Assembly: GCA_002215645.1 (NCBI GenBank)
Contig: NGFI01000005.1
Coordinates: forward strand, 736,678 to 800,677
Source: Gemmatimonadetes bacterium 2013_60CM_65_52
GTDB lineage: Bacteria; Gemmatimonadota; Gemmatimonadetes; Gemmatimonadales; Gemmatimonadaceae
Direction: 5' to 3'
DNA length: 64,000 bases
Shown here: piece by piece, positions 35,909 to 56,666 of the stretch
Layout: each line of letters opens with the position of its first letter
How positions within the stretch are numbered: position 1 is the first letter of the stretch
Program-made: the position numbers and the translations under genes
Notes under the pieces: model-generated
What the model saw: the letters and a program-made list of their open reading frames with translations, nothing else
What the model was told of the DNA's origin: nothing
Database searches by the model: none

Positions 35909-35982
35909 GCCCCTGTAGCTCAGGTGGATAGAGCAGCGGTTTCCTAAACCGTTGGCCGGGTGTTCGAGTCACCCCAGGGGCA
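35909..35982 (+). tRNA. tRNA-Arg (anticodon CCT)
   Basis: The cloverleaf is complete: acceptor GCCCCTG/CAGGGGC, D-stem GCTC/GAGC, anticodon stem GCGGT/ACCGT with loop TTCCTAA (anticodon CCT, reads AGG), a 5-base variable loop, T-stem GGGTG/CACCC with TTCGAGT, and discriminator A. The CCA end is not encoded. AGG should be a rare codon in this GC-rich genome. Confidence 0.95.
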
Positions 35983-36015
35983 CTCCCACACGCAGTCGTT
36001 CAAACCCGCACACTC

Positions 36016-36675
36016 ATGACGAGCCCGATCAACGAGTCCGCCGCGCAGCCACGAGCCGAGAGCTTCGTGGATTGGTTTCACATCAATTCCCGTATCGTCA
36101 CGGCAGGCGCGGTGGTCGTCGCGGCGGCCGCCTTCGGCTACTGGATCGTGCAACGGACGGCCTATAACGAGACCATCAGCGCCGACAGGCAGCTTCTGGT
36201 TGCCAAGCAGTCCCTGAACTCCGGAAACGAGGCCCTGGCCGCCGCGGACCTGAAGAAGGTGGCGGACAAGTACCCCACGAAGCCGGCGGGTGGCGAGGCG
36301 GGGATGCTCCTCGCGCAGCTCCAACTGGGCAAGGGTGACGTAACCGGGGCCATCGCTGGACTGAGGGCGCTGGCGACCAAGGTGACCTCGGGTCCAACCG
36401 CCGCCTCAATTCGCGGATTGCTCGGTGACGCCCTCGTGCAGGTCGCGAAGCCTGCCGAAGCGGCAGCTGAGTACGTAGGCGCAGCGAAGTCGACGTCCAT
36501 GGCCAATGAGCGCGCATACTGGGAGTCGAAGGCGGGTCGCGCGTACCTCGCGTCCAACAACACGGTCGAGGCCCGGAAGCTGTATGAGGCGCTGGCGGCT
36601 CAGACGGACAACGAAGGCATCGCCACCGAGGCTCGTGTTCGGCTCGGTGAGCTGAGCGTCGGCAGCCGCCCGTAG
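36016..36675 (+). CDS. Membrane-anchored tetratricopeptide protein (YfgM-like)
   Basis: The 219-residue protein has a short cytoplasmic N-terminus, one membrane helix (about residues 31-47, IVTAGAVVVAAAAFGYW) and a periplasmic helical-repeat domain. The layout resembles YfgM, an ancillary partner of the Sec translocon and periplasmic chaperones. Repeat-like units include LLVAKQSLNSGNEALAAADL and YLASNNTVEARKLYEALAA. It is the last + strand gene before the strand switch. The specific function is not proven; similarity to YfgM is by architecture only. Confidence 0.8.
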   Translation: MTSPINESAAQPRAESFVDWFHINSRIVTAGAVVVAAAAFGYWIVQRTAYNETISADRQLLVAKQSLNSGNEALAAADLKKVADKYPTKPAGGEAGMLLAQLQLGKGDVTGAIAGLRALATKVTSGPTAASIRGLLGDALVQVAKPAEAAAEYVGAAKSTSMANERAYWESKAGRAYLASNNTVEARKLYEALAAQTDNEGIATEARVRLGELSVGSRP

Positions 36676-36801: not shown

Positions 36802-36829
36802 AGTACGTATAATATGTATTATGTAAACT
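36802..36829 (+). other. dif: dif-like XerCD recombination site
   Basis: The 28-bp site reads as left (XerC) arm AGTACGTATAA (36802-36812), 6-bp centre TATGTA (36813-36818) and right (XerD) arm TTATGTAAACT (36819-36829). The inner ATAA/TTAT palindromic core and 11-6-11 spacing are those of known dif sites. The right arm equals the B. subtilis dif right arm as I remember it and is close to E. coli TTATGTTAAAT. It lies exactly where gene direction flips from + to - (convergent), as expected at a replication terminus. XerC/D resolve chromosome dimers here. Confidence 0.82.
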
Positions 36830-36835
36830 TGGCAT

Positions 36836-36854
36836 TGTGGATAACTGTGGACAA
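36836..36854 (-). other. Two DnaA-box-like sequences beside the dif-like site
   Basis: TGTGGATAA (36836-36844) is the exact reverse complement of the DnaA-box consensus TTATCCACA. TGTGGACAA (36846-36854) differs by one base. Start-to-start spacing is 10 bp, about one helical turn, and both have the same orientation. No dnaA, dnaN or gyrase gene is nearby, and the genes converge here, so this is not read as oriC. It may titrate DnaA or be chance. Confidence 0.45.
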
Positions 36855-37030: not shown

Positions 37031-37849
37031 CTACTGCCATTCTCCAAGCCGACCCTCGAACACAATCCGCGCCTCGCCAGACAATGAGGGTCGCCAGACG
37101 CCAGCTTGGCCATCCAACCGGACGCGAAGCACCCGACCCGAACGCGTCCGCAGGCACACAGGACTGGTAGCCTCCCCTGCTTGAGTCAGAAGGATCGCCG
37201 TCGCGACGGCACCCGTACCGCACGCCAGCGTCTCGCCCTCGACGCCCCGCTCGTACGTTCTGATCCGCCAGTCTGGCGCATCATGGGAGACGAAGTTCAC
37301 GTTGGCGCCGCGTGGCAGTGACGCCTCGTGTCGAAGCGGACGGCCGCGGCCGACGACATCCACGGCCGATACGTCGTCCACCCGAACCACCAGGTGGGGC
37401 ACACCGGCCTGCGCGAACCCGATCCACCGCTCGCCAGGTGCGAGCCGCAACGAGAGCCCGGTGCGAACCTCGGTCACAGGCTCCAGGTCGACTTCGGGCC
37501 CGCCCGGAAGGAACCGGCCGCGGAGCACGCCGGCGTCCGTCTCGATGGAATAGGAGGCGTCGCCAATGATGCCGAGCTCCCGCGCAAGGCGGGACGAGCA
37601 GAGCGACGCGTTGCCGCAGAGATCGGCTCGGGAGCCATCGGCGTTGAGGTAGACCATCCGGAAGTCGGCCACGGCGGACGGCTCGATGACGACCAACCCG
37701 TCGGCTCCGACGCCGGTAGCGCGACCGCAGATGGCCTGCACGGCCTTCGCTTCCGTCAACCCGCCCGCCGGCTCCGTCATCGCGTCGATCATGACGAAAT
37801 CGTTCCCCGACCCGCTCATCTTGTAGAAGGTCCGTCCGGAGGCAATCAC
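37031..37849 (-). CDS. dapF: DapF, diaminopimelate epimerase
   Basis: This 272-residue cofactor-free epimerase converts LL- to meso-diaminopimelate for lysine and peptidoglycan. It has two similar halves, each with a catalytic cysteine: LCGNAS in the N-terminal half and ACGTGA in the C-terminal half, plus KMSGSGNDFV at the start. After the first cysteine the usual CGNGxRC reads CGNASLC, so the conserved Arg is replaced by Leu. The start is GTG with GGGAG upstream; the ATG ten codons in is a less likely alternative. It ends the leftward gene run next to the terminus. Confidence 0.9.
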   Translation of the reverse strand: MIASGRTFYKMSGSGNDFVMIDAMTEPAGGLTEAKAVQAICGRATGVGADGLVVIEPSAVADFRMVYLNADGSRADLCGNASLCSSRLARELGIIGDASYSIETDAGVLRGRFLPGGPEVDLEPVTEVRTGLSLRLAPGERWIGFAQAGVPHLVVRVDDVSAVDVVGRGRPLRHEASLPRGANVNFVSHDAPDWRIRTYERGVEGETLACGTGAVATAILLTQAGEATSPVCLRTRSGRVLRVRLDGQAGVWRPSLSGEARIVFEGRLGEWQ

Positions 37850-55754: not shown

Positions 55755-56666
55755 TCACCCTCTTGGATGATAACTCCGGTGCACGCTGCGCAGATACTCC
55801 CGATCCACGTGCGTGTAGATCTGCGTGGTGGCAATGTCAGCATGCCCCAGCATCTCCTGCACCGCCCGCAGATCCGCGCCGCGCTCGAGCAAATGCGTCG
55901 CGAATGAATGCCGCAGCGTATGCGGCGAAACGTGCTTGCTGATTCCCGCGCGCTTTACGTAGCCGTCCAGGATCTTCCACGCGCCCATGCGCGTCAGGGG
56001 CCGCCCGCGCGCGTTGAGAAAGAGAATGCCCTTCCCCTCACCCTTCTCCAGCCGGGGCCGGAGCTCGCGTATGTACAGCGCGACCGCACCGATTGCCGAC
56101 CGGCCAATGGGCACGATGCGCTCCTTGCTGCCCTTCCCGAACACCCGCACCAGCCCCTCTTCGAGCATCAGATCGCGCAGGCCGAGCGTCACCCATTCGG
56201 TGACGCGCAGGCCGGCGCCGTATGCCAGCTCGAGCAGAGCGCGATCCCGGAATACGAGTTTGTCATCCAGCGTGGGTGCGGCGAGCAGCGCTCGGACTTC
56301 CTCGACGGTGAGCACCTCCGGGAGCGTGCGCCACTTCTTCGGTGTCTCGAGGCGCTCGCTCGGATCGCGTACCACGACACCGTCCGCCGCGAGAAAGCGA
56401 AAATAGGTCCGCAGCGCCGAGACGTTGCGGCGGATGGACGCCGGTGATAATCCGAGATCCTTGAGCTCGTACACATACTGACGCAGCAGGGGAGTCGTAA
56501 TGTCGGGCGGAGCCGCCGCTCCGCGCGCCGACGCGAAGGCTGTAAAGCGCGCGAGATCGCGCCGATAAGCGTCGAGCGTCCGAGCGGAAAGGCCCTTTTC
56601 GAGGGAGAGATATTCGCCGAATCGCGCCAGCAGAAAGGACCGGCTGCGACGATCGTCGTCGCTCAC
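55755..56666 (-). CDS. xerD: XerC/XerD-family tyrosine recombinase
   Basis: The 303-residue chromosome-dimer resolvase has an N-terminal SAM-like DNA-binding domain (about 10-95) and a C-terminal catalytic domain with the full tyrosine-recombinase set: Arg154 (LRVTE), Lys178/181 (GKGSKER), His249-Arg252 (HTLRHSFATHLL), His275 and nucleophile Tyr284. It is closer to XerD than to phage integrases by length and motifs, but C versus D is not certain. The gene lies about 19 kb from the dif-like site it would act on. The start is GTG, eight bases after the ispF stop. Confidence 0.93.
   Translation of the reverse strand: MSDDDRRSRSFLLARFGEYLSLEKGLSARTLDAYRRDLARFTAFASARGAAAPPDITTPLLRQYVYELKDLGLSPASIRRNVSALRTYFRFLAADGVVVRDPSERLETPKKWRTLPEVLTVEEVRALLAAPTLDDKLVFRDRALLELAYGAGLRVTEWVTLGLRDLMLEEGLVRVFGKGSKERIVPIGRSAIGAVALYIRELRPRLEKGEGKGILFLNARGRPLTRMGAWKILDGYVKRAGISKHVSPHTLRHSFATHLLERGADLRAVQEMLGHADIATTQIYTHVDREYLRSVHRSYHPRG

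Follow-up and report, generated by a model that had tools for sequence, protein, structure and literature searches.

A probable chromosomal dif site of Gemmatimonadales with a conserved pair of DnaA-box-like sequences beside its predicted XerD arm

A chromosomal dif site is usually described as a self-sufficient 28-bp sequence that needs no accessory DNA and is controlled by FtsK. The 28-mer at positions 36802..36829 (+ strand) of the 64,000-nucleotide stretch analysed here (the window; C13:736678-800677 of the own-genome assembly G000, which has 4,201,639 bases in 14 contigs) had been proposed from its letters alone to be such a site, and it raises two questions, namely whether it is the dif of this chromosome and whether dif in this lineage ends with the 28 bp.

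The 28-mer was found to read AGTACGTATAA-TATGTA-TTATGTAAACT in an 11-6-11 layout, exactly as described in the original prediction. By analogy with the dif sites of E. coli and B. subtilis the left arm AGTACGTATAA (36802..36812, +), which is the more variable half of the site, is presumed to be the XerC arm and the right arm TTATGTAAACT (36819..36829, +) the XerD arm, with the 6-bp central region TATGTA (36813..36818, +) between them. The right arm had been equated with that of B. subtilis dif, and in the experimentally confirmed B. subtilis site ACTTCCTAGAATATATATTATGTAAACT as printed (PMC3025954, PMC4578258) this arm does indeed have the same letters; over all 28 positions the site matches B. 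subtilis dif at 23 and E. coli dif at 21. Among 89 aligned sites of the order, column conservation was weak at positions 1-4 of the XerC arm, ATAA of the same arm was nearly invariant and TTATGT of the XerD arm near invariant, and the central region differed between relatives (tatgta, gatgta, gatatg, tacatg and others). The site also lies in an AT-rich island as claimed, its G+C content being 21%, with only 9 of the 63,973 28-mers of the window equally AT-rich. When the window was scanned with up to three mismatches allowed the 28-mer was found once, and none of 100 shuffled sequences gave a match.

The copy number, the terminus position and the polarity of the surrounding DNA were then compared with those expected of dif. 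At three mismatches or fewer there is one match in the whole 4.2-Mb genome and one copy in each of the 15 relatives that match at this threshold, and a looser pattern (18 fixed bases, up to two mismatches) matched 229 of the 297 genomes of the phylum scanned, nearly all of them once, with hardly any matches to a reversed control pattern. Two dif-like matches were seen in a few relatives (G177, at G177:C44:497-520, G192, G195, G199 and G288); most of the second copies are found at the ends of contigs and resemble assembly duplicates, but the second site of G177 differs in sequence. In the 789 kb of contig C13 used for the GC-skew and motif counts (C13 without 400,001-560,000), the cumulative GC skew reaches its maximum at C13:758297, 15 kb from dif (C13:773479), in line with the location near the skew switch that had been anticipated. 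In seven single-contig chromosomes of relatives the distance from dnaA to dif is 42-50% of the chromosome length (G030 41.6, G102 43.8, G076 45.0, G101 47.8, G186 48.0, G024 48.1 and G067 48.7%). The KOPS motif GGGNAGGG points to dif from both sides and its polarity reverses at dif, both in the own genome (strand counts 52:11 to the left and 3:13 to the right, p = 3e-6) and in the complete relative G030 (20:5 and 6:24, p = 1e-5), for which 440 kb were used for KOPS and 400 kb for skew. Such a polarity switch at dif has been described as a hallmark of the dif system (PMC13342612).

The change of strand that had been noted at the site also holds locally. To the left of dif, on the + strand, are a subtilase gene, a tRNA-Arg (CCT) gene (35909-35983, +, about 0.8 kb from dif, the sole tRNA of the window and the only hit of the Rfam search) and, as the last gene before dif, a gene for a tetratricopeptide-repeat protein (36016..36675, +; PF09976 37.7 bits, above cut-off). 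To the right, on the - strand, dapF (37031..37849, -; TIGR00652 193.1 bits, above cut-off) converges on dif and is followed by a gene for a family-2 glycosyltransferase and by more genes. The junction proved to be conserved, dif being next to dapF and the glycosyltransferase gene in nearly the whole order, and in other families of the class some members have dif beside the glycosyltransferase gene; the neighbour on the side of the tetratricopeptide-repeat gene varies among relatives.

The recombination machinery expected at dif is encoded in the genome. The gene for the site-specific tyrosine recombinase XerD (303 aa) is at 55755..56666 (-), about 19 kb from dif, and scores 352.8 bits against TIGR02225, whose equivalog cut-off is 329.6. 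The best match for XerC is an XerC-like recombinase on contig C2 (TIGR02224 330.7 bits, which is 4.5 bits below the cut-off of 335.15), and an FtsK with a gamma domain (FtsK_gamma 78.1 bits) is encoded on contig C9. The genome encodes two further tyrosine recombinases, one an integron integrase and the other an integrase of the phage type. The integron integrase is chromosomal and lies near a contig end (L003:994-2142 (+), contig C11; TIGR02249 410.8 bits), and a cassette array may be present near it.

Dif-like sites are often used by integrated elements (background in PMC3025954), and the 28-mer could in principle be an attachment site of this kind instead of an active dif. This was considered most improbable, since the sequence is single copy, a second flanking copy is absent, no better dif was found elsewhere in the chromosome, the ancestral gene junction is conserved and both the skew and the KOPS polarity switch at the 28-mer. 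Three observations had been named beforehand as speaking against dif, i.e. several copies, a location far from the skew switch and a junction lacking conservation in relatives; none of them was made, and the site was therefore accepted as dif. Judged from sequence and position, 36802-36829 is almost certainly the functional dif of this chromosome. The accompanying statement that dif sites are poorly documented outside well-studied phyla needs qualifying, as dif has been predicted in 16 phyla, one Gemmatimonadetes genome with a Firmicutes profile among them (Kono et al. 2011, PMC3025954). Given this earlier prediction, the dif call is by itself ordinary.

What had been overlooked is the DNA directly to the right of the XerD arm, which reads tggcatTGTGGATAAcTGTGGACAAgt and contains two DnaA-box-like 9-mers of the type TGTGGANAA (reverse complement TTNTCCACA) starting at +7 and +17 after the arm. 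Box 1 (36836..36844, -; dif +7) is TTATCCACA on the - strand (TGTGGATAA on the + strand) and agrees exactly with the strict DnaA-box consensus, and box 2 (36846..36854, -; dif +17) is TTGTCCACA on the - strand (TGTGGACAA on the + strand), one base off the consensus. The exact tandem GTGGANAANTGTGGANAA is found at a single place in the own genome, 8 bp downstream of dif.

The conservation of the boxes was examined at 93 dif sites of the order (families f1, f2 and f3). At +16/+17, 83 of these sites match box 2 at 7 or all of its 8 fixed bases, compared with 3 of 558 control offsets scoring 7 and none scoring 8. The fixed positions of box 2 carry 1.2-1.9 bits per column, similar to dif, against about 0-0.2 bits in the remaining flank, and the DNA around the boxes is unalignable (mean pairwise identity of the far flank between genomes 27%). 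Box 1 is kept at +6/+7 with lower information than box 2. The two boxes are one helical turn (10 bp) apart, and a shift of 1 bp moves both together (6/16 or 7/17). When matches were counted in 133 dif flanks from the phylum, all exact TGTGGANAA copies within 100 bp downstream were at +6, +7, +16 or +17 and none was found upstream of dif, the shuffle expectation being 0.0012 per 100-bp flank. Families f4 and f6 keep the boxes in part, and they are absent from the dif flanks of six families (f5 and f7-f11), which indicated that dif does not generally require the boxes.

The boxes lie between converging genes, and as dapF is the neighbour throughout the order they could be an element of dapF or part of a bidirectional terminator. 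Downstream of box 2 an inverted partner was in fact more common than expected (about 2 sites), and yet it was present at only 12 of 83 sites; no terminator-like site was detected in the window, and the folding z of -1.3 gave no reason to retain the boxes as a terminator or other RNA structure. Among relatives the dapF stop lies between 25 and 3085 bp from dif while the box stays at +16/17, also at three loci (L121, L122 and L126) where dapF is 2.1-3.1 kb away, and the box is kept as well at three loci of family f6 with no dapF match in the DNA examined. Given the fixed spacing to dif and the variable distance to dapF, the pair belongs to dif and not to dapF, and a role as part of dapF or of a terminator is very unlikely.

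The boxes are G-rich and adjoin dif, as might be expected of KOPS or another FtsK-orienting motif. Their sequence TGTGGANAA was however found only 6 times in about 790 kb, compared with a Markov expectation of about 3.7 per strand, and with a strand ratio of 4:2, so that it is neither over-represented nor usefully biased towards the leading strand; it is instead GGGNAGGG that is skewed and that switches at dif. The boxes were accordingly rejected as KOPS, a reading regarded as very unlikely. The comparisons argue that the box pair is very probably a selected part of the dif site. The predicted dif of Gemmatimonadales is longer than the textbook 28 bp and includes a box architecture at a fixed distance.

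No description of a chromosomal dif with DnaA boxes or any other accessory DNA was found in the open-licence literature; what is new here is the accessory box pair, dif itself being already known as a kind of site. The site shares with the dif of B. subtilis and E. coli the 11-6-11 layout, the terminus position, the KOPS switch and the genes for XerC, XerD and FtsK-gamma, and differs in the tandem DnaA-box-like pair, which the Gemmatimonadales site has in addition. It is the same kind of site, with a Firmicutes-type profile, as the one predicted in the same phylum by Kono et al. 2011 (PMC3025954), where the dif sequence alone was modelled and flanking elements are not mentioned in the text. 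The plasmid resolution sites cer and psi (PepA, ArgR, ArcA) likewise combine a Xer core with adjoining putative protein-binding DNA, but they are on plasmids and have about 180 bp of accessory sequence, whereas here about 20 bp on one side of a chromosomal site are conserved and the motif is another one. The DnaA-box clusters of oriC, datA and DARS1/2 contain the same TTATCCACA-type 9-mers head-to-tail; in contrast to them there are only two boxes here, at the terminus and locked to dif.

Whether the boxes are bound by DnaA was considered from their sequence. The core TTNTCCACA is the standard DnaA-box core, and box 1 of the window is an exact TTATCCACA. Nine-mers of the TTNTCCACA type are also present around dnaA in the own genome and in relatives, where they are mostly TTTTCCACA or TTATCCACA, with T or A at position 3 in 49 of 53. 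The boxes at dif have the core in common with these, but their position 3 is degenerate and often C (TTCTCCACA), and for this reason the binder may not be DnaA. The same 10-bp tandem as at dif is formed by boxes downstream of parB, in the origin region, in G002, G023 and G024 (L061, L060 and L057), which speaks for DnaA. Taken together, the chances that DnaA binds the pair appear evenly balanced. The pair could alternatively be the site of another, clade-specific protein and merely resemble DnaA boxes, for example of an architectural accessory factor like PepA/ArgR at cer, a terminus organiser or an XerD partner in SMC unloading. The different preference at position 3 fits such a protein, as does the conservation of box 2, which equals that of dif and is stricter than that of many DnaA boxes, and TTCTCCACA is no strict match to the E. 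coli R-box consensus TTWTNCACA (PMC4585315); set against the standard core, the exact consensus of box 1 and the tandem with the same period near parB, this was regarded as a less than even possibility.

Several further boxes and a DnaA-related protein were noted in the same genomes. Boxes of the type TTNTCCACA just downstream of parB near the origin are found in many Gemmatimonadaceae, including most genus-mates (L061, L060, L057, L246-L259), and are possibly an origin element or a DnaA-regulated promoter; an exact TTNTCCACA copy downstream of parB is absent in the own genome. In most members of the order a TTTTCCACA box, probably part of oriC, occupies an almost constant position close to the 5' end of dnaA, some 1.1-1.2 kb ahead of the C-terminal domain (L275-L299, L152-L162). 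In several genus-mates the DnaA C-terminal domain occurs in a second protein as well, with an open frame of about 376-425 aa (L164, L165 and L300, on G002:C138, G004:C56 and G007:C201, and also G003 and G008), while the own genome has one such protein only.

Boxes beside dif were also looked for in other phyla. When GTDB contigs were scanned for dif with a box shortly beyond the XerD arm, at least 80 loci were obtained. Among the matches listed, about 51 have the box at the offsets of Gemmatimonadota (+7, +16 or +17), and at 14 loci of the Peregrinibacteria type (Patescibacteria) it is found at +9 to +12. The other 15 or so are scattered over Desulfobacteraceae, Rhodobacteraceae, Bacteroidales, Lachnospiraceae and others. 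The scattered matches in other phyla are about as many as expected by chance and were not taken as a real association. The unselected search beyond Gemmatimonadota covered the class to which one of the Peregrinibacteria genomes belongs. In one sub-group of Peregrinibacteria the box lies on the XerD-like side of an inferred dif, a few members having a second box on the opposite side, and another sub-group with the same dif has no box. The association of dif and box therefore seems to have arisen at least twice, the Peregrinibacteria case being based on fewer genomes and an inferred dif. At L455, L458, L317 and L340 of Peregrinibacteria, DnaA-box-like 9-mers are present on both sides of dif and both point inward, and most sites of this sub-group have a conserved TGTCAATTGA on the other side of dif.

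The explanation that we consider likely for the locus as a whole is a chromosomal dif with a DnaA-box-like accessory pair that may act on XerD. By extension from E. coli and B. subtilis, and consistent with the sequence and position seen here, XerC would bind the left arm and XerD the right arm, and FtsK, steered by GGGNAGGG-type KOPS on both replichores, would reach dif at septation and activate XerD, whereby an odd number of crossovers between sister chromosomes would be undone. DnaA or another protein bound to the boxes would occupy one face of the DNA beside XerD, and it may hold XerD inactive, or assemble it, until displaced by FtsK. Such a protein would be well placed for this control, because XerD is activated by FtsK, which comes in from the flanking DNA. 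If DnaA binds the pair, it may form an accessory complex against XerD that ties Xer recombination, or another job of XerD at dif, to the replication state, with release when FtsK strips DnaA from the XerD side. That the pair gates the action of XerD and FtsK in this way is the favoured reading of its role, but a tentative one at clearly less than even odds. Alternatively, the box-bound protein could influence a role of XerD in releasing SMC at dif, a function of XerD in B. subtilis according to work cited in PMC13342612. Titration of DnaA is less likely, since there are two boxes only.

The presence of a strictly spaced and strongly conserved element beside the XerD arm across the whole order suggests a further layer of control at dif. 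It is conceivable, at somewhat less than even probability, that the initiator DnaA sits next to XerD at dif both in Gemmatimonadales and, by an apparently separate origin, in some Peregrinibacteria, and thereby joins the final step of chromosome separation. With DnaA as the binder, replication initiation would be physically linked to chromosome dimer resolution in these bacteria.
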